From the NCBI RefSeq assembly GCF_964355755.1, contig NC_092678.1:19874922-19938921 (forward strand): a stretch of DNA of 64,000 nt. Reading direction: 5' to 3'. This DNA comes from Antedon mediterranea. Taxonomy: Eukaryota > Echinodermata > Crinoidea > Comatulida > Antedonidae. This document shows, piece by piece, positions 10,701-64,000 of this stretch (positions are counted from its first letter, which is position 1; each line of letters begins with the position of its first letter). The position numbers were made by a program, and so were the translations under genes. The notes beneath the pieces are model-generated. The model was not told the origin of the DNA. It saw nothing but the letters and a program-made list of their open reading frames with translations, and ran no database searches.

Positions 10701-13700
10701 AAAACCCAGGAACGATAAATGGGGCGAAACGACCATGCCTATGAATACATAGGCCTCTAGACAAAAATTCAAGGCTAGCTAGGCTGAGCAGACGGCTGAG
10801 CTAGGCCTAGCCCTAGCTTAAAGTTAAAAGCAATCTGATAAGATTATTATGCTGTTGTTGTACAGTGAAAATCATGAGGTTACATGTAAATTATACTGAC
10901 ATTCTTATCGGAAATATTACTTAGGCCTAAACAAATCGTATTAATTGTGTGTATAAAATTTATTCCCCATTTTTCGACACATAATTTACCAAAGGGGAGA
11001 CATTTCATCAATGCGTTGACCAGCGACTAAAACGCGTCAGTCGCTAAGTGTAACGCGTTTTGCGACGTATTGTAAACTAATAACCCCTAAGTTACTGAAA
11101 AACTGTAATGTGTTAAAAAACACTATTTCCTGACCGATTTTTTAGAAATGAGTTTTTGGAAAATATTTCCGTATTTTCCTGGTTTTTTTTATGCAATCAC
11201 TTTCAATTAAACATACTTAAACATGATATAAGCTGAGAAAGTCTGAGTGTAGCTCCACTTTAATTAGTTATCTTCACACATTTGAAAAAAAACCCCAATA
11301 TTTATCATATTATAGGAGTCAAACACGCGACCCAATGAACATAAAAAGCGACGGTTTTATTGCTCTCTTAACAGATATTCCGTAGTAAATTTTGCCGCTC
11401 TTTTGACTGGTAGCATAGCCATTTTTGTTACGTTCGTTTTTTAATAAATTTCAATTTTTAGGTCACGTCGTTCTGTCACAGTGACCCGTCAGACCCACTG
11501 GGTTATCATGATGTTGAGCTGCCTCATAAACATAATACAATGTGTGGTTCAAGAAGTGCGTGGGATATAATTCTAAGAACACAAGATTTCAAAGGCGGTG
11601 TCAACCAACCTGTGGCTGGATATGTCGATACGACACCAACGTTCACACTTATGCAACCGACAGACCGACGTGTAGTGTTAGTGTTGGATACGTCAGGGAG
11701 TATGACTGTAAATATAATACATATTTTACTTACTTTACTACACCAGATTATAGTGTTGGATACGTCAGGGAATATGATTGTAAATAAGAAATATGTTACT
11801 TCCTTTACTACACCAGATTATTTCATATAATCATAGATGTGAGAAATCATCATAGATGATATATTTCTATAAGGAATAGTACAAAACGTTGTGTAAGCAA
11901 GCACAGTAGGTTTGCCACGAAGAGATGAAACTTACATATTAAAGACCCCAATAAATGGAGTCAAAACATATATACAATACCGTTTCTATAGTATTTGCTT
12001 GATTAATTTTCTCTATATTTAAGGGCGACAGGATTCAGCAACTCCGACAATCAGCAACACATTATCTGTTATATACCATTGATAGTGGAAGTTATGTTGG
12101 CATCGTTCACTTTTCAACTTATGCACAGGTTTTATCCGAATTGGTAGAAATAACTGATGATAATTCTCGTGAAGCTCTGGTGGCAGTATTGCCAACAGTT
12201 GCTACTGGTGGTACATCCATAGGGTCTGGTGTGCTAAAAGGAATTAAGGTAACAATGTCATGTTCAGAGACTCATTAGGAAACGCTTAGGCAACTATAAA
12301 TAATATGGATGTGCATATTGTGTTTTTATTTTGTGTATTTTTATGCATTTCATATGCACGGCACGTTTAAGACCATTCAGAGAATGAGCAGTCTGTCACC
12401 TAACAGCAATGTGCGATTGTTTTCAATTCATATCCAAACTAATGGCAGGGTGTGTAAAGTCAGAGGCCTAATTTTAAACCACCATTATAGAACTGAATAT
12501 GTGCACAAACGGTTTTTTTTTTTTCATTTTTCTGTGTGCAACATCTTATGAGAACTGTGCATTATAATAGTATTTAGTTTGAGGTTGTTAGTTAAAGTAG
12601 GCCTATATTCTGAATTAATCTTCACATGGGCCTTTCCTAGTTTGTAAATTGATACAACCAGTTTTAAATATTTGTTATGATTTAACTGCGAAGTGAACCA
12701 TTACCGTACACAATAGTTATACTTGAAAGTGAAACATATTATGGTGAATCTTTTTTAATTCTTCAATATAGGTGCTTTCGCGTGGTATACAAACTGCAAA
12801 AGGTGGTTCACTACTCTTACTAACGGATGGAATGAACAACGCCCTACCTGATATCAATGATGTTCTTGATGACGTAGAAAACGCAGGCGTCGTCGTAGAC
12901 ACTATTGCCTTCTCTAGCAGTGCCGATCCTAATCTTGAAAATCTTAGTGATGTATCGGGCGGAATTGCATTTTACTTTAACGACATTGAAGATATATCTG
13001 TTCTTAATAGTGCTTTTGAAACAACTGTTACAAGCCGACCGGATCAAAGCTCTCAGCCTCTCCCAATAATGGTTATTATATGTTTGTTATCTAATTGTGT
13101 GAACCCAAGGCAATATAACAACAGGATGTTGAGCTCGCCTTGCCAAGAGTACATTGTTCCCCGGTTTCTGCTTAGGTGCGTGGAACTGATCGTGTCGTAA
13201 CCAAACATAAAACCTTTAATCCTGTTGTTAGATTGCCTTGGTAAGCCTATGGTTGTTTTAAATAAAGTTTACTGTCTCAATAATGCGATTCAAGAGAATG
13301 AAATATCCATTCATTGAGGGCAGAGTAATGTGCAATTTAAGCTTGGTTCCCAATAGGCGAGTTTACCAATGACAAGCGACAGTTTAAATATTCTATCAAT
13401 TGGTCAAATAAAGTTACGCCGAGTTTACGTACTTGCGTTGCGTCTCTAGTGGGAACCAAGCATTACTCTACTAACATGACCTGAACATATGACTTTGGTT
13501 TTATTTGTTTTTTACTTATATATCTCAACCTCTACCTTGTATTTTATATTTAAAAAAATGTTAATGCCCACTTCTTCACCGGAAGTTCGAGGAGCTTATT
13601 ATTATTGGCTTAGACAGAGACCAACTTTTAAAACTTTGTTTCTTAATGATCTCTAATCAGTTATACAACATTTTAGCTTCACAGCGATGCTGTAGCTACA

Positions 13701-24864: not shown

Positions 24865-25563
24865 TTACGATTTGTCTATTTTTAAAAGGTATTTCAGTGA
24901 AGCGGACTTTAGTCTAAACAACGAAATTGTATCAGGTACAGGCATCAAGAACCGTTCCACTTCGGTAAATCCGTATTTCTTGTAGATAGAAATTGCCTTG
25001 GAGTTCCCAGCCCCTGTGACAAGACAAATTTCTCTATAACCATTGTTTATACAGAATTTGATCGCAGTTTCCATCAGCATAGTTCCAACACCTCTTTTGC
25101 GACACAAACTGGAGACGTACAATCTCATGATTTCCGCAGTGTCATTTCCAATCTCTTGGACAGCGACAGTTCCTAAGACGACATCACCAGAAACAGCAAC
25201 TTTATAGCAACAACGTTCCTTCATAACAAAAGTGTTCAAAATATTGCTATTTTGTATTCCAATTTGCGTAAACTGATTAAACCAGAGACATTCCAGATAT
25301 AACCGAATATTAAAACACAACATAAAAACGCTTATTAAGCAAATTAGCGAAGATGTCAAATACAACACCAGGCCGCATAAGATATAAGTTATACTCGTGG
25401 TAGGTAGAGAAAGATAGGCGAATGAGTGGATTGCCTTGTGAAAATATTTTCTGTAATCACCCACCATACCTTCTTCAAATAACTTAAAAGCATCGTTTTC
25501 TTCGTTCGGCTTTATATCTCTGACAATGATTTTTTCAAAAGCAACTTTCTGTTGTGGATGCAT
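24865..25563 (-). CDS. GNAT-family N-acetyltransferase, NAT8/camello-like, paralogue 1
   Basis: 232 aa. The hydrophobic block (about residues 45-95, LSLPTTSITYILCGLVLYLT to LYLECLWF) is followed by a GNAT fold: CYKVAVSGDVVLGTVAVQEI, then MRLYVSSLCRKRGVGTMLME, where RKRGVG is the acetyl-CoA loop (Q/RxxGxG), then YKKYGF near the C-terminus. The membrane segment before the catalytic domain is typical of NAT8-like enzymes of the ER/Golgi, which acetylate cysteine conjugates or protein lysines; the substrate here is unknown. I chose the ATG at 25563 because it aligns residue for residue with the start of the second copy (both 19 residues up to IVRDIKP / VSVRDVKP). The longer open frame to 25602 runs into a CAG acceptor (TTGTATTCAG), suggesting a 5' UTR intron. 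Confidence 0.88.
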   Translation of the reverse strand: MHPQQKVAFEKIIVRDIKPNEENDAFKLFEEGMVGDYRKYFHKAIHSFAYLSLPTTSITYILCGLVLYLTSSLICLISVFMLCFNIRLYLECLWFNQFTQIGIQNSNILNTFVMKERCCYKVAVSGDVVLGTVAVQEIGNDTAEIMRLYVSSLCRKRGVGTMLMETAIKFCINNGYREICLVTGAGNSKAISIYKKYGFTEVERFLMPVPDTISLFRLKSASLKYLLKIDKS

Positions 25564-27130
25564 TTTCCAAACAGCAGCTTCAATACCAAGTTCTGAATAC
25601 AAGAATTAAAAGGTAATACCTGTAATTATGTTTGGTCTATGAAACATACAACTGAAAACTGGGTTGTCGAGCGATGTTTATATTCTGATATTCATCATAA
25701 GATTGATTGGACGTACTGTACGCGCATGCGCAACATTTTACTTGTTATTAATTGGTTATTTAGATATACTATACATGTAGTGATAATTGCTTTCCTTTGA
25801 AGAATGCACTCTTACCCGCACATTCCTATAGAGTTGATGCGAAGATTAATGTAAGTGTTGCATGGTGAGTTATCATAAACAGTTAAACAATTAATCGTAA
25901 AATAATATACACTGTCACACATATTCTTTCTGACATTAACCCTATGATTTTTTTTATTGTGAAACAACGTAATTAAGGAATATGTAAGTTAATTCCATCT
26001 TTGCCATACATCGACATATGTTTTTACAATAAATCGCTCTTTTAAAAAACCTGTTAAAAAGTGTAAAAATGAATTAAACGATCTTGTATCGTATATATAA
26101 CCCAAAGCTATAGTATACAATTTGTTTTTTAATTTTATTTCGGTTTTTTTTTACCCCAAAAGATATAGACGAAATTTAATTAAACCCCTGCAATTTATTT
26201 TTTATTTTAATGATATTGATATTTTTATAATTTAATACATTAATATTATTTTTTCTTTTGTGGCATCCACCACTTTTATTCAATTTTCATTCAACAATAG
26301 CATGTATATTACATAATAAAATCACTGTACAATAATTGTAATCATTTACTCATTTATAAATATTAATCATAATAATTTTTTTCTTTAAATCTTTTTTATT
26401 AATTGTTTATAAGAAATTATAGAAGTGTAAAAGTATAGGCATCAATAATATAAATATAAACACGATTTTGACAAGTCCGCGTGTAATGGACTGTACATCA
26501 TGCACCCATATCCATAAAATATAATTTTTAATATTAATGTACTATCTCATCATTTATTTGAGTAATTTTTATTTTACAAGGTTTTAATAGATCATTACTT
26601 TAAATGCACATAACATATTATTCTCGCAATACTCAAAAAGGGTTGCTAGATTTACAGCAATACATTATAGTTTATAAGAATGTGCATAGTACGAACAGAT
26701 CGAAATAACCGCTGCCACCAAATTATGTCAAACACCGCTGCCACCAAATTATGTCAAGAACTCCTATTAGGTATGTTTCTGAGCGGTTGAAAATACTTTA
26801 GAAACTCTCTTGTGACATAAAAGTATAAATACAAAATCAAAAAAGTTGTAAAATAACTAAAAAACAAAGCTTTAATTTCAATCAACTTTCAACAATCCAG
26901 TAACCACTTTAAACAACAACTTCACAATAACTTTTACAATCGAATATCCAACAACCTTACAATAGTTTTACATCCCTTTATATACAAGATGTTCCTATCC
27001 TTCTAGATCGTTCTTTATACTTCTTATTCTATTGGATTACAGTTTCTATTGATAGCACTTCTGGAATTTTCCTGATTGTTCTTATTAATTATACATGGTT
27101 TCTTAAATCAAAACATCTTATTCAAGAATG
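25564..27130. other. Gene-free AT-rich spacer
   Basis: Upstream region of the first acetyltransferase gene. Apart from poly-A/T tracts I see one short tandem duplication at 26705-26757 (CCGCTGCCACCAAATTATGT twice). No open frame of note. Confidence 0.6.
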
Positions 27131-27957: not shown

Positions 27958-28635
27958 CTATAGTTTCAAGATATACTTTTCTTGAACTGAAATCGGAGTG
28001 AAAACGGATGATCTATCAGACGCCGGTATAGACATGGTTTTCGATTTATTGAATCCACATTTCCTATAAAACGAAGACGCTTTATTTCCAGCCCCTGTTA
28101 CGAGTGTGATTTCTGTATATCTAGCTTCAACGCAGAACTTGACGGCGGCATCCAGCAACATCTTTCCGACACCATTTCTCTGACAGCTAGCAGAAACGTA
28201 CATTCTCAAAAGCTCTGCCGTTTCTCTTCCGACTTCTTGCACAGCAACAGTCCCTACGATGACGTCATCCAAGACAGCCACTTTGTAACAACAGCGGTCG
28301 TTAAACAAAAACTCGTTTATACTCGTTTGTAACGCAATTTTAGTGTACATTTTATACCACAGACTTTCTTGGTACAACCTACACGCGAAACACAGTGAGA
28401 AGCACAGGAAAACCCAAAACAACGAAGACGTCAAATGTAACACTAGTGCACATAGGATAAAAGTAAACAGAGTGGTAGGCAGCGATATATATTTAAATGA
28501 ATGAACTGTGTTGTAGAAATAAGTCGTATAGTCCACCATTCCTTCTGTAAACAACTTTTTTGTACATTCAACGTCAAGCGGCTTGACGTCTCTCACGCTT
28601 ACATTTTCAAGACTCATTTTCGGTCGCGGAGACAT
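27958..28635 (-). CDS. GNAT-family N-acetyltransferase, NAT8/camello-like, paralogue 2
   Basis: 225 aa, single exon, starting MSPRPKMSLENVSVRDVKP. It shares with 24865-25563 the hydrophobic block (YISLPTTLFTFILCALVLHL), the DRCCYKVAV strand, the CQRNGVGKML acetyl-CoA loop and the VTGAGNKASSFYRKCGF end, so it is a tandem paralogue with the same orientation. The acetyl-CoA loop has Q-R-N-G-V-G, fitting the Q/RxxGxG/A consensus, so catalysis is probably intact. Probably an integral ER/Golgi enzyme; substrate unknown. The open frame ends at the window-strand TAG beside 27958. Conservation of both frames argues that both genes are functional. Confidence 0.88.
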   Translation of the reverse strand: MSPRPKMSLENVSVRDVKPLDVECTKKLFTEGMVDYTTYFYNTVHSFKYISLPTTLFTFILCALVLHLTSSLFWVFLCFSLCFACRLYQESLWYKMYTKIALQTSINEFLFNDRCCYKVAVLDDVIVGTVAVQEVGRETAELLRMYVSASCQRNGVGKMLLDAAVKFCVEARYTEITLVTGAGNKASSFYRKCGFNKSKTMSIPASDRSSVFTPISVQEKYILKL

Positions 28636-30040
28636 TTCACAACAAAACTGGTTTTGTATTATCTACTCTCAAACGATTAAAAACAATGTTCTCTATAGTG
28701 AAAGTAATAATCAAGTTTCACTCCTATACTCCTTGCTATAAACTTATGAACACTATTAATTATAATGACAGGCTTATACAGTAATTTTGAAATAAAATAA
28801 TATGAATCGAACGTTCAACCAATGATCGACATTATCCAGTATATACGGACCACCAGCCTTAAAATACAAGTTACAAATATACGATAAAAATATAATTTAG
28901 GTCAACATGAACAAAGATACAATTGGTGAAATCGCATACGCTTAGGCCTACAATTATTTATACATTTGGAGAGTTGTTGTGCTATTGTGTTTTTGTCTGT
29001 GGATTTACAAGTAGGCCTATTATTTAAAAAGCTTCGTCGGAATTATAGCACATACAAAATTAAATTTCTTTTAGTTGATCGAGTGACAGAAAATGATGAT
29101 AGGCCTATTTATAGCCTACAATATTTACTTCACGTGTCAATCTCTACGGTAAAGTGACAGCGCACATCATTAATAAAACTTAACTACGTTTAAAAACGTT
29201 TCTTTCAAAAACTCATGACCTCACAATATGTTTGTAAAAAAAATGTTACAATGGCTTTTTAGTACCCGTATTTTGAAAAATGTTTATGCGTTAGATTTTT
29301 TAACGTAAAAAACGAAGTACCGTCATATGTATGTAATGAAGATGAGGCGGTGCGGCATTTCCCGTTGAAGAATATTTTAATGTTTGGTTAATGAGGAAAG
29401 ATGACTTTGTTTTTATCACACAAGACACACATATGCTTGCCGACAACTTGTATAACACGAATTCTTCTCAATAATACAATGGCAAGTCATACTGAAACAA
29501 AGAAAAACAAATACAGACGTGACCTACTTTGTAAATTTTATACCTAACGACTTGATTTATGAGTTCTGATAGTTGAAAGATATATGGTCATTTGGCAATG
29601 ACATTTTTTTTTTACATTTTGTTGTTGAATAAGCCATTTTATGTCACATAATAGTTATTCACTTTGACCAAAAATTTGATCGGCATAAAAACTATTTACC
29701 TGAAAAACTGTAATATAAAAGAAAAACATAGTCAAATTTTCTGTTAGACAATTGTGTTTTTGGTCTTTTGAGATTTTCATTCTTTGTTTTTTTTCCTGTG
29801 GAATTGAATAACTTCATTAAAACTGCAAATGGCCTAGTAAAAGTCAGATTTTATATACCTTTATTTTTCATGATTTTGGAGAACAATACATCTTTACAAC
29901 TATCATATTATTAAAAAAAAAACACACAACAGAAATTAAAAACATAATTTTGGTTTAAACTGCATGCAGAAGTTTCTTTTTTTTTCTTGGGTGGATTGTT
30001 CGGTGGTATGTGGTGGGTGGCCCGAGATTTAAAACATTAT
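28636..30040. other. Gene-poor spacer with a MITE-like right end
   Basis: No supported gene. The interval 29570-29900 resembles the interior and right end (AACAATACATCTTTA) of the TTAA element at 27131-27683, without a clear left end. The short frame at 28966-29157 has no recognisable motif. Confidence 0.5.
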
Positions 30041-46614: not shown

Positions 46615-46824
46615 ATGGATAGAAATGTAAACGTACGCACGAAACAAAACCTCAAATGGCAACTAGCGACAGATGGCTGGTGAATAGCCCGATAAATATC
46701 GGTCGTTTTTCCAGTCTTTACAACCGTTTTCGGAAGTATTTTAATAAATTAATTGATATGCCTATTTCTCTTTGTTGTGGAATTAAACTCCGCCTTCCCA
46801 AATGTTTACGTAGAACAAGAATAG
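46615..46824 (+). other. Exon 1 of modular gene copy 1 with a 10-bp deletion relative to copy 2
   Basis: The CACCATGG start at 46615 matches the start of copy 2 (61135), but ten bases (CTTGTGCCGG in copy 2) are missing after GCGACAG. From 46615 the frame stops after 22 codons. The internal ATG at 46656 (CAAATGG) re-enters the conserved frame WLVNSPINIGRFSSLYNRFR. So this copy either starts at the second ATG or is weakened by the upstream frame. Confidence 0.8.
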
Positions 46825-49800
46825 GTAAGTTGATTACGTTACAACATAGGCCTAGTCTGATTCTAACTTTAGGCAAGTTATCCTATCTAGGCGCACACCT
46901 ATGCCTAATTTGATTATATTACAATGATCTGCGCACTTAATTAGTAACTTGTGTTGTTTTCTTTACATTTTTGGTAGGCCTATGTACACTTTAAAAAGAT
47001 AAGATAAGGTTAAAAGTATTAAAACTATGGGAAAATGGCATAATTATTGTTAAAAATAATGTATGTTTATGTAACCATAGTTACTGAACTTGTAGTGGTG
47101 CGTATAAAATGTCGCGTATGAAAGAGCATCAGCGCGGTGTTACTAGTTGACCTCTCTCACGCCGTCACGAGATCACAAAAAGCGGTGTGACGTATGCAAA
47201 ACAATGAATTGCTCTGGGGGCGTGGCCTGTATTATAATCATAATGCTATTGGTGTAAAGTTGGGCGCTTATTTACGTCATAAGAAAAGTAAAACAAAAAT
47301 CGTGATACGTCGTCGTGTGTGTTTGTTGTTGTGTGTGCGCGGCGGAGGCGTGACGCGGTCATACCGCCGGTGGTGGTCGGTCGGATCATGGATTCTTTAA
47401 TCCATGGTCGGATGATCCGTGGACGTGGTATAGTTGGTACGCTTAGACCTAGGGCCTAGCTAGGCTAGGCCTAGTAGTAGAAGCAGTGTAGTAGGCCTAC
47501 TGGCCAAAACCTCATATAGATAGATAGGCCTATAGTTATTGCCCAAGGTATACTATGGCTACTATGCAAACATGCCTAACTAGCTCTAGGCTAGGCCTAG
47601 GCCTAGGCTAGACCTAGTCCTAGCCTAGCTAGTAGGGCCTGGCCCTAGAGGCTACTTTAGGCTAGCCTAGAGAACTAGCCTCTAGGTAGCCTCTAGGTAG
47701 GGCCAGCAGGCTAGGCCTAGGCTAGGCCCTATCTATAGTATAGGCCTAGTTAGGCTAGCCTACCTAGCTAGGCCTATACTATAGATAGGGCCTTGCCTAG
47801 TCTAGCCTAGGCCTACAATTCTACTATCTAGTACTAGGCTAGTAGGCATAAGCATGTAGGTCTAGCTAGGCTGCCTATATAGGCCTAGGGCCTAGCTAGG
47901 CCTACCTACCCCTACTCTAGGGCTAGGCTAAAGCTAGTGTAGCTGGCTAGACTAGCTAGGGCCTGCTAGTTCCTCTAGCTAGCTAGGCTAGCCTCTAGCC
48001 AGCTACACTAGCTTAGCCTCTAGCTTTAGCCTAGGGTAGGTAGGCCTAGTTAGTATATAGGCAGCCTAGTAGAGGCCTTAGCCTAGTACTAGCTAGTAGA
48101 AGGCTAGCCTCTAGCTAGGGCTAAGCCTACTAGGCTAGACTAGCTACTAGCCTAGTATTAATTATTAGTTTAATAGTTAGTATTACGAGGCCTCTCACTA
48201 GGCGATCCTATACTAAAGCTACCCAAGACTGAGTATAAGAGCCTACCTAGCTAGGAGGCCTGGCTAGTATTTTAGGCTGGGCCCTATCTAGCCTAGTTGA
48301 TATCCCTTCCCAACCAACACTCTATCTTCACACATTGCAAGGCCGTAGCGAGAGGTTAAAATCAGACGAAGCAATACTTTTAATATAAATTATATTATAT
48401 AAAATATGACCTCAGCTTCTTAGTGGGGTGGGTTGTGAAATTTTCAGAGATAATTCGAGCGCCTCTTCTTCCTCATGCTAACTACGGCACTGCATTGTTC
48501 ATAGTGGTATCTTTTTTTGTAGTTGTAGCAGTCTTACCAGCAGGACCCCCAGCCCCAGTAGTAGCAGCAGCAACAGGAGATGAAGAAGATGAATCCTATA
48601 GACCAATAGATGGAAGTTCAAACAATCAATCATCATCTTCACCTGCTGCAGGTAGGCCAGTCTTGCATAATAGCCTATCATTTACTATTTTCCTTAGGAC
48701 ACCACAGATTTGTATACAGTATAGGGTGTGCTGTTGGAATATATTTACTTTAGAATTAAAGATTAATTTGAAAAACTTTTATCACAGTCAAGTCACTCAC
48801 TCCTGGCCTGAATGACTTATTACAACTAACAAGCGCAAAACATCTGCGATTGACACTAAAACTAGACACGTCCACCACCTGCCAGACATCGCAACTTGCA
48901 GTCAAGAGCACCAATGACGAAGATGTACAACTCAAAAAGCGTGCAGCTACATTTGTGCAAGATATCCTAGCCACTGCAGTTGCAAAATGCCAAGCCATAG
49001 AACAAGACGAGAACAACACTGACCGTAAGAACATACACTACCATCATGCCTAAAAGTAGTTCAAGCCATCAAAGGTGGAGCATGTGTACCTAAAGCCAAC
49101 CTCTCCCCAACACCCAACCCAGTCCACCTCGTTAAATAAACCAATCTGGAATTTGATGATGAATAATGGTTATTTGAATTTTTTTTAAATAAAGTTTTTT
49201 TTTTATCTTAATCATTATTAAAAGAATTGTATAATAATTGATTATAATTGTTGACATATCAAAATAATTGTAATAATATCTTTATAGACAAGGCAACTAT
49301 AGCACAGCAGCCAGCTGAAACCTCCACCTCTGATGAGGATGTCGAGCTTGACAATCTGGCAACAAGTCTTGTGGAAGAAACTTTGTCAATAGTAATGGCA
49401 GAACAACTGGCCACTGTTCATAACAATGAAGCACATCACCCAACTGCAGGTAGGCCAGTCTTGCATAATAGCTTATCATTTAATATTTTCTTTAGGACAT
49501 CACACATGATTTGTTTTAGTGTATATTAGTATGCTGTTGGAATATATTACTTTCTAATTAAAGTTTAATTTGAAAAAACTTTTATCACAGTCAACTCACT
49601 CACTCCTGACCTGAATGACTCATTACAACTAACAAGCGCAAAACATCTGCGATCGACACAAAAACTAGACACGTCCACCTGCCAGACATCGCAACTTGCA
49701 GTGAAGAGCATCAATGACGAAGATATGCAAGTCAAACAGCGTGCAGCTACCTTTGTGCAAGATGTCCTAGCCACTGCAGTTGCAAAATGCCAAGCCATAG

Positions 49801-52800
49801 AACAAGACGAGAACAACACTGACCGTAAGAACATACACTACCATCATGCCTAAGCCAATTGAAAGGCCTACCACTAGCATAAATAGATATCGAAAAGTAA
49901 TTCAAGCCATCAAATGTGGAGCATGTGTACCTAAAGACAACCTCTCTCCAACACCCACCCCAGTCCACCTCGTTAAATAAACCAATCAATCTCTCATCTT
50001 TTTTTTATAATTGATTAAATTCTCTTTCACATTTATATTTAGATTTGTTCTTAGAATTGAAGGACAAAATATATAGCTCATGTTTTTCTGTTTTCTTTTC
50101 GTCTCTTAATTTAATTTTCTTGTTTTGTTTTTAGATAAACAATTTGATGATGAATAACGGTTATTTAAATTTTTTTTAAATAAAGTCATTTTTTTTTATC
50201 TTAATCATAAAAGAATTGTATAATAATTGATTATAATTTTAGACATATCAAAATAATTGTAATAATATCTCTATAGACAAGGCAACTGAAGCACAGCAGC
50301 CAGCTGAAACCTCCACCTCTGATGAGGATGTCGAGCTTGACAATCTGGCAACAAGTCTTGTGGAAGAAACTTTGTCAATAGTAATGGCAGAACAACTGGC
50401 CACTGTTCATAACAATGAAGCACATCATCCAACTGCAGGTAGGCCAGCCTTGCATAATAGCTTATCATCTAATATTTTCTTTAGGACATCCCACATGATT
50501 TGTTTTAGTGTATATTGGTATGCTGTTGGAATATCTTTATAATTAAAGTTTAATTTGAAAAAACTTTTATCACAGTCAACTCACTCACTCCTGGCCTGAA
50601 TGACTCATTACAACTAACAAGCGCAAAACATCTGCGATCGACACAAAAACTAGACACGTCCACCTGCCAGACATCGCAACTTGCAGTCAAGAGCATCAAC
50701 GACGAAGATATACAAGTCAAACAGCGTGCAGCTACATTTGTACAAGATGTCCTAGCCACTGCAGTTGCAAAATGCCAAGCCATAGAACAAGACAAGAACA
50801 ACACTGACCGTAAGAACATACACTACCATCATGCCTAAGTCAATTGATAGGCCTACCACTAGCATAAATAGATATCGAAAAGTAGTTCAAGCCATCAAAG
50901 GTGGAGTATGTGTACCTAAAGCCAACCTCTCCCCAACACCCACCACAGTCCACCTCGTTAAATAAACCAATCAATCTCTCATCTTTTTTTTATAATTGAT
51001 TAAATTCTTGTTCACATTTATATTTAGATTTCTTCTCAGAATTGAAGGACAAAATATATAGCTCATGTTTTTCTGTTTCCTTTTCATCTCTTAATTTAAT
51101 TTTCTTGTTTTGTTTTTAGATAAAGAATTTGATGATGAATAGCGGTTAATTAAATTTTTTTTAAATAAAGTCATTGTTGTTTTATCTTAATCATAAAAGA
51201 ATTGTATAATAATTGATTATAATTTTTGACATATCAAAATAATTGTAATAATATCTCTATAGACAAGGCAACTGAAGCACAGCAGCCAGCTGAAACCTCC
51301 ACCTCTGATGAGGATGTCGAACTTGACAATCTGGCAACAAGTCTTGTGGAAGAAACTTTTTCAATAGTAATGGCAGAACAACTGGCTACTGTTCATAACA
51401 ATGAAACACATCATCCAACTGCAGGTAGGCCAGTCTTGCATAATAGCTTATCATTTAATATTTTCTTTAGGACATCCCACATGATTTGTTTAAGTGTATA
51501 TTAGTATGCTGTTGGAATATATTACTTTAGAATTAAAGTTTAATTTGAAAAAACTTTTATCACAGTCAACTCACTCACTCCTGGCCTGAATGACTCATTA
51601 CAACTAACAAGCGCAAAACATCTGCGATCGACACAAAAACTAGACACGTCCACCTGCCAGACATCGCAACTTGCAGTGAAGAGCATCAATGACGAAGATA
51701 TGCAAGTCAAACAGCGTGCAGCTACCTTTGTGCAAGATGTCCTAGCCACTGCAGTTGCAAAATGCCAAGCCATAGAACAAGACGAGAACAAGACTGACCG
51801 TAAGAACATACACTACCATCATGCCTAAGCCAATTGAAAGGCCTACCACTAGCATAAATAGATATCGAATAGTAGTTCAAGCCATCAAAGGTGGAGCATG
51901 TGTACCTAAAGCCAACCTCTCCCCAACACCCACCCCAGTCCACCTCGTTAAATAAACCAATCAATCTCTCATCTTTTTTTTATAATTGGTTAAATTCTCT
52001 TTCACATTTATATTTAGATTTGTTCTCAGAATTGAAGGACAAAATATATAGCTCATGTTTTTCTGTTTTCTTTTCGTCTCTTAATTTAATTTTCTTGTTT
52101 TGTTTTTAGATAAACAATTTGATGATGAATAACGGTTATTAAAATATTTTTTTAATAAAGTCATTTTTTTTTATCTTAATCATAAAAGAAATGTATAATA
52201 ATTGATTATAATTTTAGACATATCAAAATAATTGTAATAATATCTTTATAGACAAGGCAACTGAAGCACAGCAGCCAGCTGAAACCTCCACCTCTGATGA
52301 GGATGTCGAGCTTGACAATCTGGCAACAAGTCTTGTGGAAGAAACTTTGTCAATAGTAATGGCAGAACAACTGGCCACTGTTCATAACAATGAAGCACAT
52401 CATCCAACTGCAGGTAGGCCAGCCTTGCATAATAGCTTATCATCTAATATTTTCTTTAGGACATCCCACATGATTTGTTTTAGTGTATATTGGTATGCTG
52501 TTGGAATATATTACTTTATAATTAAAGTTTAATTTGAAAAAACTTTTATCACAGTCAACTCACTCACTCCTGACCTGAATGACTCATTACAACTAACAAG
52601 CGCAAAACATCTGCGATCGACACAAAAACTAGACACGTCCACCTGCCAGACATCGCAACTTGCAGTGAAGAGCATCAATGACGAAGATATGCAAGTCAAC
52701 CAGCGTGCAGCTACCTTTGTGCAAGATGTCCTAGCCACTGCAGTTGCAAAATGCCAAGCCATAGAACAAGACGAGAACAACACTGACCGTAAGAACATAC

Positions 52801-55800
52801 ACTACCATCATGCCTAAGTCAATTGATAGGCCTACCACTAGCATAAATAGATATCGAAAAGTAGTTCAAGCCATCAAAGGTGGAGCATGTGTACCTAAAG
52901 CCAACCTCTCCCCAACACCCACCCCAATCCACCTCGTTAAATAAACCAATCAATCTCTCATCTTTTTTTTATAATTGGTTAAATTCTCTTTCACATTTAT
53001 ATTTAGATTTGTTCTCAGAATTAAAGGACAAAATATATAGCTCATATTTTTCTGTTTCCTTTTCATCTCTTAATTTAATTTTCTCTTTTTGTTTTTAGAT
53101 AAAGAATTTGATTATGAATAATGGTTATTTAAATTTTTTTAAATTAAAGTCATTTTTTTTATCTTAATCATAAAAGAATTGTATAATAATTGATTATAAT
53201 TTTTGACATATCAAAATAATTGTAATAATATCTCTATAGACAAGGCAACTGAAGCACAGCAGCCAGCTGAAACCTCCACCTCTGATGAGGATGTCGAGCT
53301 TGACAATCTGGCAACAAGTCTTGTGGAAGAAACTTTGTCAATAGTAATGGCAGAACATCTGGCCACTGTTCATAACAATGAAGCACATCATCCAACTACA
53401 GGTAGGCCAGCCTTGCATATTAGCTTATCATTTAATATTTTCTTTAGGGCATCCCACATGATTTGTTTTAGTGTATATTAGTATGCTGTTGGAATATATT
53501 ACTTTATAATTAAAGTTTAATTTGAAAAAACTTTTATCACAGTCAACTCACTCACTCCTGGCCTGAATGACTCATTACAACTAACAAGCGCAAAACATCT
53601 GCGATCGACACTAAAACTAGACACGTCCACTTGCCAGACATCACAACTTGCAGTCATGAGCACCATTGATGAAGATGTGCATCTCAAACAGCAGGCAGCT
53701 ACCTTTGTACAAGATGTCCTATCAACTGAAGTTGCAAAATGTCAAGACGAGAACAACACTGACCGTAAGAACATACACTATCATCAATTGATAACATACA
53801 GTATTTATTTGTAGATATCTAAAAGAAGTTTTAAGCTGTCAAAAAGGAGTGCGTGTACCTGTAGCCAATCTCTCTCCCAACACCCACCCAGTTAAATAGA
53901 CCAATCAATCTTTCATCTTTTGTTTTTTTAAACAGATTCTTGTTTACATTTGTTCATTCTCATTTTTAAAGGAGACAGTATATTAAGCTCATCTTTTTCT
54001 GTTTTCTTTTCATCTCTTAATTTCCTTTTCATGCTTTGTTTTTCGACGAAAAATGTTATGATGAATAAAGAAAATTTGAATAAAAAAAAGATAAATATTC
54101 ATGATTTGTTGTTATAATTGTTATTATTATTGTATAATTTTTAGAATATTAATTAAATAGTAATAATTATCAAACAAATTTCTCTATAGACAAGGCAACT
54201 GAAGCCCAGCAGAATACTGCAGCAGAGCAGACAACTGCAGAAAAGCAAACAACTGCAGCCTCCATCTCTGAGGAGGATGAGGAGCTCGACAAGCTTTCAA
54301 ATTCTGTTGTTCAAGATGTTTTGTCGAAGGTCGCAGAAAATCTTGCCACCGCCAACCTGCTAACTGAAAAACAGCAGCCACCTGAATCAGCCTACACGGA
54401 TACAGTAGAGAAAGATCAGAGGAAAGGTACAATATGACTTTTCATTCATATGAATTTTCATTTAAGCTTAACCAATCATTTCCATACTGTTATATTTTTT
54501 AACAATTTGAAATCTATATTGTAACATATCAGTAACTGAATTTGCTTTTACCCTGCGCTAGATCTCACAACCGATACTTGCACAGAATACGGAGACCCTT
54601 TCTTCGGAATCAAAGGAGATACTGCTATGGCAGGTGGACAATTTGTAAGTAACTCATAGACCTCACAAAAACAGGTACACAACAAGCAGTGGCATGAGCC
54701 TATTTCAATGTACTTAATTTACTGAATGTGAAAAGAGTGAAAAAATAATTCGGCTTCCCAAAAATAATTTAAAAATAAAGAAGATCTAGGCTATCAAACA
54801 ACAGGACACTGACCATCCTTGTACATAAAACGTTTTGTGCGGATGCGATATGATTATGCCCCACCCCACAACATTTCATTAGAGTCTATGTGACTGGTAG
54901 TACCAAAACGGTACCATCCATAATCCGTATTATTTTTTTAAAATTTTTACTATGTTTGAATTTTTTATAGGCATCAGATTGCAAAAGCATCCAGGAACAG
55001 AATGATGAAATGGATGAAGCATTTTATAAGTATGGAGTGGAAAGTGATTATGACTGGATAGACATGGGACCTTCAGACCCAAGCGATGAAGAACCAGATG
55101 CCTGGGTGAGGCAGAGAGCTATCGCCCAGAGATTAGCAGCCAAGGCTGCGAGGAGATCTTTGAATATTAACCCTGGTAAGCCAACTGAAGCCTCCATCTG
55201 TGATGATGATGAGGAGCTGAACAATCATCCAACTACAGGTAGGTCAGCCTTTCATAATAGCTTATCATTTAATATTTTCTTTAGGACATCCCACATGATT
55301 TGTTTTATTGTATATTAGTATGCTGTTGGAATATATTACTTTATAATTAAAGTTTAATTTGAAAAAACTTTTATCACAGTCAACTCACTCACTCCTGGCC
55401 TGAATGACTCATTACAACTAACAAGCGCAAAACATCTGCGATCGACACTAAAACTAGACACGTCCACCTGCCAGACATCACAACTTGCAGTCATGTTCAC
55501 CAATGATGAAGATGTGCATCTCAAACAGCAAGCAGCTACCTTTGTACAAAATGTCCTATCAACTGCAGTTGCAAAATGTCAATACGAGAACAACACTGAC
55601 CGTAAGAACATACACTATCATCAATTGGTAACATACAATATTTATTTGTAGATATCTAAAAGAAGTTTTAAGCTGTAAAAAAGGAGTGTGTGTACCTGTA
55701 GCCAATCTCTCTCCCAACACCCACCCAGTTAAATAGACCAATCAATTTTTCATCTTTTGTTTTTTTAAACAGATTCTTGTTTACATTTGTTCATTGTAAT

Positions 55801-57260
55801 TTTTAAAGGAGACAGTATATTAAGCTCATCTTTTTCTGTTTTCTTTTCATCTCTTAATTTCCTTTTCATGCTTTGTTTTTCGACGAAAAATGTTATGATG
55901 AATAAAGAACATTTGAATAAAAAAAAGATAAATATTCATGATTTGTTGTTATAATTGTTATTATTATTGTATAATGTTTAAAATATTAATTAATTGTAAT
56001 AATTATCAAACAAATTTCTCTATAGACAAGGCAACTGAAGCCCAGCAGAATACTGCAGCACAGCAGACTACTGCAGAAAAACAAACAACTGCAGCCTCCA
56101 TCTCTGAGGAGGATGAGGAGCTCGACAAGCTTTCAAATTCTGTTGTTCAAGATGTTTTGTCAAAGGTCGCAGAAAATCTTGCCACCGCCAACCTGCTAAC
56201 TGAAGAACAGCAGCCACCTGAATCAGCCAACACGGATACAGTAGAGAAAGATCAGAGGAAAGGTACAATATGACTTTTCATTCATATGAATTTTCATTTA
56301 AGCCTTAACCAATCATTTCCTATACTGTTATTTTTTTTAACAATTTGAAATCTATATTATAACATATCAGTAACTGAATTTCCTTTTACCCTGCCCTAGA
56401 TCTCACAACCGATATTTGCACAGAATACGGAGACCCTTTCTTCGGAATCAAAGGAGATACTGCTATGGCAGGTGGACAATTTGTAAGTAACTCATAGACC
56501 TCACAAAAACAGGTACACAACAAGCAGTGGCATGAGCCTATTTCAATGAATGTGAAAAGAGTGAAAAAATATTTCGGCTTCCCAAAAATAATTTAAAAAT
56601 AAAGAAGATCTAGGCTATCAAACAACAGGACAATGACCATCCTTGTACATAAAACGTTTTGTGCGGATGCGATATGATTATGCCCCACCCCACAACATTT
56701 CATTAGAGTCTATGTGACTGGTAGTACCAAAACGGTACCATCCATAATCCATATTATTTTTTTTAAGTTTTTACTATGTTTGAATTTTTTATAGGCATCA
56801 GATTGCAAAAGCATCCAGGAACAGAATGACGAAATGGATGAAGCATTTTATAAGTATGGAGTGGAAAGTGACTATGACTGGATAGACATGGGACCTACAG
56901 ACCCAAGCGACGAAGAACCAGATGCCTGGGTGAGGCAGAGAGCTATCGCCCAAAGATTAGCAGCTAAGGCTGCTATGAAATCATCGAATATTAACCCTGG
57001 TAAGTTTATTTTTATTTTTAAAAGCTGATTTGTTTGTCTACGCTTTACAAATTCTTCCCTATTAGTAGGGCCTCATGAGTACTAAAAATATTCATTCATT
57101 TTAATGTTTAGACCAACACGAGCTACAAGACGTCGACAATGATGAGGAAACAAATTGCCGACCAATAGTAGTTGACATGACATCACTGGCTGACATGACA
57201 GCAGATGATGATCCAAACTTAACCTATCATGATGCTACGATAGACCAATACAATTACTGA
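46656..57260 (+). CDS. Modular membrane-anchored protein with tandem acidic/amphipathic-helix exons, complete, 21 exons, unrecognised
   Basis: Exons: 46656-46824, 48424-48651, then A/B pairs 48788-49024, 49288-49449, 49591-49824, 50277-50438, 50576-50809, 51263-51424, 51566-51799, 52252-52413, 52555-52788, 53240-53401, then 53543-53764 (A), 54190-54426 (long B), 54562-54644 (C), 54971-55238 (D), 55380-55601 (A), 56026-56262 (long B), 56400-56482 (C), 56795-56999 (D), 57112-57260. All introns are GT-AG and the frame closes to 1361 codons plus stop. The N-terminus is basic and Cys-containing (PISLCCGIKLRLPKCLRRTR), followed by a hydrophobic stretch (about 79-108) and then acidic repeats. A exons carry STNDEDVQLKKRAATFVQDV, B exons STSDEDVELDNLATSLVEET plus LSIVMAEQLAT. 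C and D exons are acidic (KYGVESDYDWIDMGP). The helix spacing resembles AKAP R-subunit-binding helices (inference). An upstream ATG at 46615 is out of frame here because of a 10-bp deletion. Confidence 0.75.
47095..47240 (+). promoter_or_regulatory. Conserved block in intron 1 with TATA-like and GC-box-like words
   Basis: GTATAAAATG at about 47102-47111, then TCACGAGATCACAAAAAGCG and GGGGGCGTGGCC, are kept in the same order in the second gene (61620-61745). Possible alternative promoter or enhancer of the modular gene; no transcript evidence. Confidence 0.35.
47440..48290. repeat. AGGCCTAG low-complexity region in intron 1 (copy 1)
   Basis: About 850 bp made almost entirely of short self-complementary words (AGGCCTAG, CTAGGCTAG, TAGCTAGG), without a fixed unit length. 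The same region is present at 61905-62550. Isolated AGGCCTA words are also scattered through the whole window. Confidence 0.9.
50135..50157 (+). CDS. Possible alternative terminal mini-exon, unit 2
   Basis: After an A exon, the acceptor GTTTTTAG opens the frame H-KQFDDE-stop, followed by AATAAA at 50179-50184. Same phase as the B exons, so splicing to it would end the protein early. Confidence 0.35.
51120..51142 (+). CDS. Possible alternative terminal mini-exon, unit 3
   Basis: Frame H-KEFDDE-stop after GTTTTTAG; AATAAA at 51164-51169. Confidence 0.35.
52110..52132 (+). CDS. Possible alternative terminal mini-exon, unit 4
   Basis: Frame H-KQFDDE-stop after GTTTTTAG; AATAAA at 52154-52159. 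Confidence 0.35.
53099..53121 (+). CDS. Possible alternative terminal mini-exon, unit 5
   Basis: Frame H-KEFDYE-stop after GTTTTTAG; the poly(A) word here is the weaker ATTAAA. In the next two units (near 54043 and 55880) the acceptor reads TTTTTCG and the mini-exon is lost. Confidence 0.3.
53543..56999 (+). repeat. Tandem genic duplication: about 1.83-kb A + long B + C + D unit, twice
   Basis: Corresponding exons are offset by 1837 (A), 1836 (long B), 1838 (C) and 1824 (D) bp, and the introns are nearly identical. This is a second, independent duplication scale inside the same gene. Confidence 0.92.
54971..55238 (+). CDS. Hybrid D/B exon of the modular gene
   Basis: The first 205 bp equal exon D. 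Instead of ending at its donor (CCTG/GTAAG, after 55175) the open frame can continue as GKPTEASICDDDEELNNHPT to the B-type donor after 55238. Both ends leave phase 1, so either donor is usable. The B-derived part keeps the acidic motif but has lost the helix. Confidence 0.7.
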
Positions 57261-59120
57261 ATACTTTAATCATATTTACAATGGACTAATTATAATCATT
57301 TCAATATTAATTTTACGATAAAGATACATTATTTGATATGTTTGTTTTATGAAATTTACAGTTGTGCAATAATAAATGATAATTTGATATATATTGTAAA
57401 CTTTGTTTTTAATTTTATTTATTTCTCTTTCGGGCTTTTGATTTTAATATAGTTAATGAAATCTTTTTACTTTCCTACATTGAAGTACTTTCTATTATAA
57501 TAATTATAAATAAGAAATTTCACCTAATTAACACATAAAGTACTACAAATCATTATTGTAAATTCTGTATGATTTTAATTGGTTCTAAATTTATTATATC
57601 CTTATTCTCATTCTTAAATAATTTTGATAATTTAATAAATACAATTTTTGAATACTAGTATTGTAAATGTTAAAATTATTGAGAGAATTTAAAATATTAA
57701 TTAATTCAGGCTCCTCTGATTATTGTTAAAAAATAAAATTAACACTCTGACAACATAAAATAGTTAAACAGTGCCATCTATTTTTAACGGTCGATAAACT
57801 TTTTAACAGCAGTTAGGCCCAACTTTCGGTTCACGATGTGAGGACATAGTTACCATTTCTGGCATTATTATTATTATTATTTTATTTTTCTTTTATTAGG
57901 TGATATTTTATAATAAAAAGATCACTTATTGTTATTGTATGAAAATATCATTATTGTTTTACTTTATTTTTAGTCGCGTTCAACGGTCGGTCGGTTGGTC
58001 GGTAAATACTAACTTGAGCACACGACTGCAACCATGTATATGGACTTGTTTCTTATTTTTACTATTTCAAAGAATTATTTTTTCACCAAAACACTTGGCG
58101 TCGGGAACCAGGGGGATGGGGGAAAGCCCACTGAAAGCTCGGCTCTTTGAGTAATTTATAGATCGTTTCAATCGATTTCTGAACACATAAAAATTCCTCC
58201 CAGAAGAATACAATTAGGTTACGCATTTTTAAAGCACTGGTCCTGATGCCCACACACAAAATATATAATCTGTATTTGTATGTAGATACTGTATTTTCAG
58301 AAATTACATACGATATGTCGATATAAGAAGTCTTACTTTCTTATTCATTTCAATAATTTAATGATTTTGCCTTTCAAAAGTGAGGTACTGGTACTGGTAC
58401 TGGTTCAAATAACCGTCTCACAGAGACATCTGGTAGCCATTGACTTGAAGTTGGCATTTGGATGTGTTACTTTTAAATGTAGGCCTACAGTATGAGAGTG
58501 ACTACTACCAAATTACACAGTCACAAAACAACTTATAAAACAGTTCATATGAGGTGGACAATCACTCACTAATCAAATTATCTACAACTCCGTGGATGCG
58601 TAAGATCGTATCTGTAAATTTGGTGTTTTACTATTAGAACTTTTAATTTATGTCCACTTGTCTGTTGTTAGTAACATACCTTTTACGAGCTTTTATAGAA
58701 TTTTCTTCTTTATGGCATGAGAAAATTTCCCGAATGATCTTAATCGAAACCGTACTGAGTTTGGTCTTCTAGCGTCCCAGCCGCTCCCCCAAAAGTCATC
58801 CATTCAGAAGCACTGATGAACACAGTTTATCCGTGGTGGCTATGAGTGGTCCGGTCACGTCCCGGGACATGACTAATTATAATCACTTCACTATAATATC
58901 ACTATAATTATAATCGCTTCGCTCGCGTACCATCTAGATCGTGCCCATAGATGGTTCTCGAATACATAGTAATTTCAGCGTTAAAAAATTGGCGACTTCA
59001 AATGTACATGCAAGACAATTAAATCGGTGATTTATGTACTCAACTAAAATTAGCATCCTGGGAATTACTTCCGAAAGAGAAACTTGTCACAAAATAAGAC
59101 CAATTGTTTTGAAACAAACT
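57261..59120. other. 3' flank of the modular gene and spacer
   Basis: AATAAA at 57371-57376 is a likely poly(A) signal about 110 bp past the stop. The rest is AT-rich with no supported gene. The frame at 57900-58154 has no recognisable motif. Confidence 0.55.
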
Positions 59121-59125
59121 AAATG

Positions 59126-59387
59126 TGTGTTTTGTATGCAACATGAGGGTTGAGGGATGGGGAAGAGGATGGGTGCAAAGACGAAAAATTTGTGTTTTGT
59201 ATGCAACATAAGGGTTGAGGGATGGGGAAGAGGATGGGTGCAAAGACGAACAATTTGTGTTTTGTATGCAACATGAGGGTTGAGGGATGGGGAAGAGGAT
59301 GGGTGCAAAGACGAACAATTTGTGTTTTGTATGCAACATGAGGGTTTAGGGATGGGGAAGAGGATGGGTGCAAAGACGAACAATTTT
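59126..59387. repeat. 65-bp minisatellite, four copies
   Basis: The unit contains TTTTGTATGCAACATGAGGG and TTGAGGGATGGGGAAGAGGA. ATGCA words fall at 59136, 59201, 59266 and 59331, giving an exact 65-bp period. It creates overlapping proline/histidine-rich frames on the minus strand, which I do not call genes. Confidence 0.93.
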
Positions 59388-59460
59388 TAAATATATTCTT
59401 TATCCATTTAGTAACGAAATATCAATTGTTTTCATGTTTTACAAATAATATACCACTAAA

Positions 59461-61134: not shown

Positions 61135-64000
61135 ATGGATAGAAATGTAAACGTACGCACGAAACAAAACCTCAAATGGCAACTAGCGACAGCTTGTGCC
61201 GGATGGCTGGTGAATAGCCCGATACATATCGGTCGTTTTTCCAGTCTTTACAACCGTTTTCGGAAGTATTTTAATAAATTAATTGATATGCCTATTTCTC
61301 TTTGTTGTGGAATTAAACTCCGCCTTCCCAAATGTTTACGTAGAACAAGAATAGGTAAGTTGATTACGTTACATTACAACATAGGCCTAGTCTGATTCTA
61401 ACTTTAGGCAAGTCATCCTATCTAGGCACCATGCCTAATTTAGATTATAATTATTACAACACTTAATTAGTAACTGGTGTTGTTTTCTTTACATTTTTGG
61501 TAGGCCTATGTACACTTTAAAAAAATAAGGTTAAAAGTATTAAAACTATGGGAAAATGGCATAATTATTGTTACAATAATGTTTGTTTATGTAACCGTAG
61601 TTACTGAACTTGTAGTGGTGCGTATAAAATGGTCGCGTAAAAGAGCATCAGCGCGGTCTTAGTTGACCTCTCACGTCACGAGATCACAAAAAGCGGTGTG
61701 ACGTATGTAAAACAATGAATTGCTCTTGGGGGCGTGGCCTGTATTATAATCACAATGCTATTGGTGTAAAGTTAGGCGCTTAATTACGTCATAAAATGAA
61801 AAAAAAATCGTGATACGTTGCGAGTGTGACGTGTGGTGGGGGGTGTGTTTGTCGAGAGTCGGTGGTTGATCGGGGTCGGATCCGTGGACGTGGTAGTTTG
61901 TACTAGCTTAGGCCTTAGGCTAGCTATAGGCCTACTAGGCCTAGTAGTAGAAGCAGTAGGCCTACTGGCCAAAACCTCAAAACATGCCTAGGTAGCGGTA
62001 CTACTACTAGCCTACTACAGTAGTACTACTAGTATAGGGTAGGCCTAGTACTAGCCTAGCCTAGCTAGCCTATAGAGGGCCTAGCTAGACTAGAGCCTGC
62101 CCTGCGTGAGGCTAGCCTAGCCTCAGCTCAGGCCTAGCTAGCTAGAGTAGTAGGTCTAGACTCTCTAGGCCTAATGCTAGTCATCTAGGCCCTAGCTAGG
62201 CTAGCCTCTAGCCAGCTACACTAGCTTAGCCTCTCTATAGCTTTAGCCTAGGCTAGTAGGGTAGGTAGGCCTAATTAATTAGTATATAGAATTATAGGTT
62301 AGGCAGCCTAACCTAGAGGCCTACTACTAGGCTAGCCTAGGCCTTAGCCTAATACTAGCTAGTAGAAGGCTAGCCTCTAGCTAGGGCTAGGCCTACTATT
62401 ATAGGCTAGACTAGCCTAGTATTAACTATTAGTTTAATAGTTTAGTATTACGAGGCCTCTCACTAGGCGATCCTATACTAAGCTACCCAAGAGTATAAGA
62501 GCCTACCTAGCTAGGAGGCCTGGCTAGTATTTTAGGCTGTGCCCTATCTAGCCTACAGTAGTTGATATCCCTTCCCAACCAACACTCTATCTTCACACGT
62601 GAGACATTGCAAGGCCGTAGCGAGAGGTTAAAATGAGACGAAGCAATATGCTTTTAATATAATTATATTATATAAAATATGACCTCAGCTTCTTAGTGGG
62701 CTGGGTTGTGAAATTTTCAGAGATAATTCGAGCGCCTCTTCTTCCTCATGCTAACTACGGCCCTGCATTGTTCATATTGGTATCTTTTTTTGTAGTTGTA
62801 GCAGTCTTACCAGCAGGACCCCCAGCCCCAGTAGTAGCAGCAGCAACAGGAGATGAAGAAGATGAATCCTATAGACCAATAGATGGAAGTTCGAACATTC
62901 AATCATCATCTTCACCTGCTGCAGGTAGGCCAGCCTTGCATAATAGCCTATCATTTACTATTTTCCTTAGGACACCACAGATTTGTATACAGTATATAGG
63001 GTATGCTGTTTACTTTAGAATTAAAGATTAATTTGAAAAACTTTTATCACAGTCAACTCACTCACTCCTGGCCTGAATGACTTATTACAACTAACAAGCG
63101 CAAAACATCTGCGATTGACACTAAAACTAGACACGTCCACCTGCCAGACATCGCAACTTGCAGTCAAGAGCACCAATGACGAAGATGTGCAACTCAAAAA
63201 GCGTGCAGCTACATTTGTACAAGATGTCCTAGCCACTGCAGTTGCAAAATGCCAAGCCATAGAACAAGACGAGAACAACACTGACCGTAAGAACATACAC
63301 TACCTTTATGCCTAAGCCAATTGATAGGCCTACCACTAGCATAAATAGATATCGAAATAATTTTCTTGTTTTGTTCTTAATCTTAGATAAAGAATTTGAT
63401 GATGAATAATTGTTATTTGAATTTTTTTTAAATAAAGTCTTTTTTTTATCTTAATCATAAAAGAATTGTATAATAATTGATTATAATTTTAGACATATCA
63501 AAATAATTGTAATAATATCTCTTTAGACAAGGCAACTGAAGCACAGCAGCCAGCTGAAACCTCCACCTCTGATGAGGATGTCGAGCTTGACAATCTGGCC
63601 ACAAGTCTTGTGGAAGAAACTTTGTCAGTAGTAATGGCAGAACAACTGGCAACTGTTCATAACAATAAAGCACATTATCCAACTGCAGGTAGGCCAGCCT
63701 TGCATAATAGGTTATCATTTAATATTTTCTTTAGGACATCCCACATGATTTGTTTTAGTGTATATTAGTATGCTGTTGGAATATATTACTTTAGAATTAA
63801 AGTTTAATTTGAAGAAACTTTTATCACAGGCAACTCACTCACTCTTGGCCTGAATGATTCATTACAACTAACAAGCACAAAACATCTGCGATCGTCACAA
63901 AAACTAGACACGTCCACCTGCCAGACATCTCAACTTGCAGTCAAGAGCACCAATGACGAAGATGTACAACTCAAAAAGCGTGCAGCTACATTTGTGCAAG
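61135..64000 (+). CDS. Modular repeat gene, copy 2, 5' part (runs off the right edge)
   Basis: Exons: 61135-61354, 62697-62924, 63053-63286 (A), 63527-63688 (B), 63830 to beyond 64000 (A). The start MDRNVNVRTKQNLKWQLATA is intact; exon 1 ends in phase 1 and joins exon 2 as VGWVVKFSEIIRAPLLPHAN. Exon 2 gives the hydrophobic segment ALFILVSFFVVVAVLPAGPP and the acidic GDEEDESYRPIDG. Exons 2, A and B are almost identical to copy 1, including intron sequence, so the duplication is recent. The A exon at 63830 joins through GGC (Gly) rather than GTC (Val). A mini-exon candidate lies at 63387-63409. Confidence 0.82.
61905..62550. repeat. AGGCCTAG low-complexity region in intron 1 (copy 2)
   Basis: Counterpart of 47440-48290, about 200 bp shorter and reshuffled, whereas the exons on both sides are nearly identical between copies. 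Confidence 0.88.
63387..63409 (+). CDS. Possible alternative terminal mini-exon, gene copy 2
   Basis: Acceptor TCTTAG, frame H-KEFDDE-stop, AATAAA at 63431-63436. It shows the feature is shared by both gene copies. Confidence 0.35.

Follow-up and report, generated by a model that had tools for sequence, protein, structure and literature searches.

A tandemly amplified crinoid gene family built from repeated, putatively helical exon modules

Three kinds of described system come closest to the gene reported here, a 21-exon gene on the forward strand of a 64,000-nucleotide stretch of the crinoid Antedon mediterranea (contig NC_092678.1, C9 below; this whole stretch is called the window, and positions are counted from its first letter unless given in Mb of a contig). 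In D-AKAP1, one of the A-kinase anchoring proteins (AKAPs), an RII-type helix comes after a membrane segment, and so does a basic flank. AKAPs in general carry an amphipathic helix of 14–18 residues in a protein that is mostly disordered, according to one account (PMC4516873), and descriptions of the helix offer an RII-binding consensus, LxxxAxxIVxxAIxxA (PMC3682517), and a model of five hydrophobic patches flanked by three acidic or polar residues (PMC11367651). The SpTransformer (Sp185/333) genes of sea urchins are portrayed as clustered two-exon genes with internal repeats and a helix-prone protein (PMC5491942).

As in AKAPs, the hydrophobic positions of the repeated modules encoded here match LxxxAxxIVxxAIxxA, but there is no profile match, the modules are predicted to lie on the non-cytosolic side of a membrane and there are up to 14 near-identical predicted helices in one protein. 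With D-AKAP1-type scaffolds the gene shares the order of a membrane segment and then an RII-type helix, although the basic flank precedes the membrane segment here and follows it in D-AKAP1. The SpTransformer genes, set beside ours by description only, are alike in being clustered, in their internal repeats and in their helix-prone protein, whereas two exons there stand against 21 exons with A/B cassettes here. Among the literature matches listed, and within their excerpted texts, there is no multivalent AKAP of this kind, and the literature on AKAP motifs and multivalency, sea-urchin repeat families and topology, which cannot be searched by sequence, yielded no paper on the family. Here we describe an animal protein family, unmatched in these comparisons, that is expanding by whole-exon cassette duplication; we give about an even chance to its being a tandemly amplified family of type II membrane proteins whose helices pack on each other in a stalk outside the cytosol.

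Gene architecture and the tandem array

The gene occupies positions 46656–57260 (+) and its 21 exons form a model of 1353 codons plus one terminal stop that is open throughout, with GT-AG at all internal junctions. It contains seven A exons (222–237 nt), five B exons (162 nt) and two long-B exons (237 nt), each entered and left in phase 1; the counts, phases and both end coordinates of the original prediction, as well as the motif letters that it gave for the modules, are thereby borne out. The basic N-terminus is encoded by exon 1 (46656–46824), and exon 2 (48448–48651) supplies the single hydrophobic segment (ALFIVVSFFVVVAVL) with an acidic linker after it. Then come A1 (48788–49024) and the B–A pairs up to A6, namely B1 (49288–49449) and A2 (49591–49824), B2 (50277–50438) and A3 (50576–50809), B3 (51263–51424) and A4 (51566–51799), B4 (52252–52413) and A5 (52555–52788), and B5 (53240–53401) and A6 (53543–53764). 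Long B 1 (54190–54426), C1 (54562–54644) and D1 (54971–55238) precede A7 (55380–55601), which like A6 is four codons shorter, and the series closes with long B 2 (56026–56262), C2 (56400–56482), D2 (56795–56999) and a last exon (57112–57260) that encodes an acidic C-terminus ending in DQYNY and the stop. The C and D exons are thus duplicated within the gene as well. D1 continues in frame into a B-like acidic tail (KPTEASICDDDEELNNHPTT); the two are joined through a GGTAAG, which the last D exon uses as its splice donor.

This recurrence of exons is not due to chance. The A–B unit has a period of 985–990 nt in the middle of the gene, and 300-nt stretches over the A exons are spaced 800–1837 nt apart overall; their ungapped identity to the reference is 97–99% in four central copies and 66–79% in the other three, and the high identity of the central copies implies that much of the gene is the product of recent duplication. 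Introns differ by 2.7–4.7% between units (four introns compared). By eye, intron 1 holds many short CTAGG/CCTAG-like words (47440–48280).

Within the genome (354 Mb in 18 contigs) the same gene is present eight times head to tail at 19.9216–20.0184 Mb of C9, an array of about 97 kb of which the window gene is copy 1. Copies 1 to 8 contain 14, 13, 13, 9, 13, 11, 9 and 9 modules, in total 91 (49 A, 33 B and 9 long B). AG/GT borders are intact in all 91, and neither the 16 C exons nor the acceptors of the 16 D exons show a border failure, the check in copies 2–8 having covered A, B, long B, C and D acceptors. A B-like tail is found on eight upstream D exons in copies 1–7 (two of them in copy 6), and copy 8 is devoid of it. 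The window takes in the beginning of copy 2 (61135–64000, +), with a start codon near 61135, exon 2 at 62720–62923 as matched and then A, B and A exons, before the copy runs past the window end. Between copies 1 and 2 lies a repeat with a 65-bp step and five overlapping frames (59057–59446).

The copies differ at their starts. An ACCATGG start is in frame through exon 1 in copies 2–8, where the second residue of the N-terminus is acidic. In copy 1 this shared frame is broken, exon 1 being 10 nt shorter than in the other seven; what is left is a short upstream open reading frame (ORF) at 46615–46683 (+) that overlaps the start at 46656 and ends in a stop. Copy 1 must therefore begin at the ATG at 46656, which is in frame in this copy only, or at a later ATG.

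Three relatives reside outside the array, and as weak matches may be missed this genome-wide count is a lower bound. They are a broken copy on contig C11, a fragment on contig C1 made up of a D exon and a last exon that is split across two frames, and a paralogue at 19.02 Mb of C9. In the paralogue the A helix takes the form of a 78-bp minisatellite with stops in places; three B-like units, two of which are separated by a stop, and a C-like piece come after it. The minisatellite (C9 about 19.022–19.024 Mb; L022, 3622–6469) corresponds to two Tandem Repeats Finder (TRF) rows of 21.7 and 14.7 copies and is open in part and in part carries repeated stops. The module has been multiplied in three ways: A–B exon pairs have built up inside the gene, the gene itself has been copied in tandem, and a minisatellite has formed in the paralogue.

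Searches of Pfam, the PDB and prokaryotic contigs have revealed no credible relative. In Pfam, three gene pieces gave chance-level matches only, the best being FAM163 (E 0.059, below the cut-off), and a PDB sequence search with an A–B peptide produced no match. The best PDB entries for single modules, designed repeats for A (E 0.33), PNUTS for B (E 0.24) and NOC2 for D (E 0.24), are not credible. A search of prokaryotic contigs with exon D returned 71 pattern matches, none of which was confirmed.

Module homology, predicted fold and membrane topology

The proposal that A and B are old duplicates of one module finds support in a comparison of their profiles, which are shallow, with hhalign (probability 74%, E 2.7e-5, 36 columns, 31% identity). 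All 91 array modules fit LxxxAxxIVxxAIxxA in one register, and this shared hydrophobic register exceeds what chance would give and is a genuine trait of the family; the A, B and long-B matches to the consensus are not independent of each other, the modules being related. In agreement with the helical character expected of the modules, AlphaFold2 predicts one helix each for A (residues 3–75, mean predicted local distance difference test score, pLDDT, 90) and B (residues 15–48, mean pLDDT 81); the alignments behind these models, with 12 and 10 similar sequences, respectively, leave helix length and isolation uncertain. The predicted B helix begins at residue 15, inside the acidic S-x-[DE]-[DE]-D motif, and for this reason the motif may be read as a helix N-cap.

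Exon 2 carries the only strong hydrophobic segment of the protein, with a Kyte–Doolittle mean of 2.51 over 19 residues compared to at best 1.13 elsewhere. The 87 residues ahead of it (taking the copy 3 and 4 form of the N-terminus) include 16 K/R and 3 D/E, the last 25 of them 6 and 1, respectively; the 35 residues past it include 1 K/R and 6 D/E, and the acidic remainder of about 1250 residues 88 K/R and 220 D/E (copy 1). The warning attached to the original prediction, that a basic flank before the hydrophobic segment would place the repeats on the non-cytosolic side, thus applies. Given this charge distribution and the positive-inside rule, which one source calls universal (PMC13220792), the N-terminus is predicted to be cytosolic and the acidic remainder, with its repeats, non-cytosolic. 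As judged from the charges, the protein would have a type II layout with a single hydrophobic segment near the N-terminus, a positive flank on the cytosolic side and a long C-terminal part. A C-terminal N-x-T sequon is found in all 49 A exons (in one of them as NKT after a substitution) and a second N-x-S/T sequon in 41 of the 49, a retention that fits an outside location of the repeats; it is no proof of it, because the A exons are young duplicates. The last 12 columns of A (67–78), which hold a cysteine and the terminal sequon, have a ratio of nonsynonymous to synonymous changes (pN/pS) of 0.07 among 34 distinct sequences.

We suggest the following picture. The basic N-terminus would remain in the cytosol, and the one hydrophobic segment would act as a membrane anchor or be cleaved to release the protein. 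The long acidic C-terminal part would face the lumen or the outside with 9 to 14 exon-encoded amphipathic helices, each starting acidic and showing a broad hydrophobic face, and with a tail formed by the C, D and last exons. The likeliest mechanism is that the hydrophobic faces pack together within or between chains, so that the repeats would make a multivalent stalk of helices, or a platform for assembly, whose length could be altered by unequal exchange of phase 1–1 A–B cassettes. Such a family may be restricted to one lineage. Eight paralogues with between 9 and 14 modules apiece would amount to a natural valency experiment, provided that the helices bind a partner.

A number of points weigh against this stalk. 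The 15 residues nearest the hydrophobic segment on its N-terminal side are about neutral, the positive charge lying further out. The 49 sequons do not represent 49 independent events and have no chance expectation alongside them, and columns 67–78 were one of five A column sets tried. One A-exon variant (2 of the 49 exons) is devoid of both cysteines, and an intact A exon on C11 of the first. The AlphaFold models are single helices from few and similar sequences, and the first D exon of copy 5 (1 of 16) contains a stop codon.

Selection, kinase anchoring and other explanations

Across the array, whole-exon ratios of nonsynonymous to synonymous substitution rates (dN/dS) are 0.21 for D, 0.43 for long B, 0.50 for A, 0.85 for B, 1.13 for exon 2 and 1.18 for the last exon, whereby the rates for exon 1, exon 2 and the last exon rest on very few changes and those for D omit one stop-bearing exon of 16. 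D has the lowest value among the exon classes measured and is the most guarded of them, so the repeats may be an adjustable stalk by which the D tail is displayed or clustered. Within B the ratio is 0.53 in the helix and 1.74 after it.

The looser of these values would be expected if the copies were mostly drifting duplicates of a young, repeat-prone gene, in which unequal crossing-over multiplies the cassettes and the single repeat has little function; the B exons (in particular their part after the helix), exon 2 and the last exon, with the reservation just given for the latter two, and A are in line with this. So are the broken state of the C11 copy and the C1 fragment and the conversion of the paralogue into a minisatellite. 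We nevertheless regard drift as unlikely, as splice borders and hydrophobic register are kept in every one of the 91 A, B and long-B exons of the array and the ratios for D and long B are low.

The original prediction was of a multivalent membrane-tethered AKAP, in which every A, B and long-B helix would lie in the cytosol and dock in the groove of the PKA regulatory subunit. To compare the modules with the RII consensus we used a score of our own with a maximum of 7, its weights set before the first scoring, and shuffled, random and ideal-helix nulls, which are no substitute for a proteome-wide null. On this scale D-AKAP2 scores 4.0 and Ht31 5.5. The 49 A exons score 5.5 (32 exons), 5.0 (10), 4.5 (6) and 3.5 (1), the 33 B exons 5.0 (32) and 3.5 (1) and all nine long-B exons 4.5; hence 89 of the 91 modules reach at least the score of D-AKAP2 and 32 equal that of Ht31, while the negative controls, exon D (15 exons) and the last exon (8 exons), stay at 0.0 and 0.5. 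When the exons of the 14 copy 1 modules are shuffled, the real score is attained in 0.03–5.2% of cases, the worst being A6 with a Glu at the last place, compared to 81% for D and 40% for the last exon. A score of 5.0 is passed by 15 of 100,000 random windows and by ideal amphipathic 22-mers in 0–2.6% of trials. Outside the array, two C11 exons score 5.0 and 5.5 and the 29 stop-free units of the paralogue, defined by a simple pattern, 6.5 (1), 6.0 (9), 5.5 (3), 4.5 (3), 4.0 (9), 3.5 (1) and at most 0.5 (3). RIIa docking domains occur at three places in this genome, which also speaks for anchoring.

The pair spacing emphasised in the original prediction stands as far as register and score are concerned. 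The stricter 12-residue RII pattern is matched by 49/49 A and 9/9 long-B exons and by 0/33 B exons. This pattern is unspecific, since exon D (15/15) and the membrane segment, neither of which has reason to dock, match it too; shuffled A, B or long-B exons match it in 6–13% of cases. The Pfam profile RII_binding (PF10522), named at the outset as a check, had no match up to E = 10 in the three gene pieces scanned (exons 1–2, A1, B1, A6, long B 1, C1, D1 and the last exon), a negative qualified by the unchecked presence of the profile in the library and by the ease with which HMMER filters lose short motifs. In 11 of the 29 stop-free paralogue units the thirteenth, core place of the consensus is an Arg. 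Additional constraint on the codons of the AKAP face was sought in A by comparing pN/pS on and off the face and there was none: the ratio is 1.45 on the face and 0.47 off it, although just 1 of 6 replacement types on the face crosses between hydrophobic and polar compared to 3 of 9 off it. In B, pN is 0.014 on the face, where pN/pS is 0.29, and 0.026 off it, where synonymous changes are absent, so that the face-codon evidence from A and B is mixed and small.

Repeats that face away from the cytosol, as the charges predict, would make kinase anchoring unlikely. PKA anchoring is possible but disfavoured, and the multivalent scaffold of the original prediction is rather improbable on the present evidence. 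Should an isoform or an unusual insertion place the repeats in the cytosol, which we consider very unlikely, the array would encode eight membrane-tethered AKAPs, each of them with 9 to 14 helices for docking. A family of this sort would possibly be the most multivalent kinase scaffold known, with the number of docking sites tuned by cassette duplication.

Quite unlikely, too, is a role as secreted or cell-surface effectors that diversify by cassette shuffling, which by analogy with SpTransformer proteins would be disordered chains turning helical on contact with microbes or membranes. That the genes are tightly clustered and repeated internally, that their copy numbers are mosaic and that the chain is acidic and helix-prone suits such effectors, and the SpTransformer account lists similar traits (PMC5491942); however, the genes in that account have two exons where this one has 21, and the dN/dS values of the D and long-B exons are well under 1. 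Just as improbable is a mitochondrial protein that has a basic presequence, is arrested in the inner membrane by its hydrophobic segment and exposes its repeats to the intermembrane space, for although the N-terminus is rich in Arg and Lys and poor in acidic residues, as many as 87 residues precede the hydrophobic segment and position 2 is acidic in copies 2–8.

Neighbouring open reading frames

Pfam scanning of the neighbouring ORFs covered 49 of the 93 listed ORFs of at least 85 codons and then 10 of them. Upstream of the array, ORFs at 9255–13197 (+) match a CLCA-type gene (PF08434, E 2.8e-26; VWA, E 2.4e-4, below the cut-off). Two further ORFs close to each other, at 24868–25605 and 27961–28662 (−), contain GNAT acetyltransferase domains (PF00583, E 1.2e-15 and 2.2e-16, respectively).

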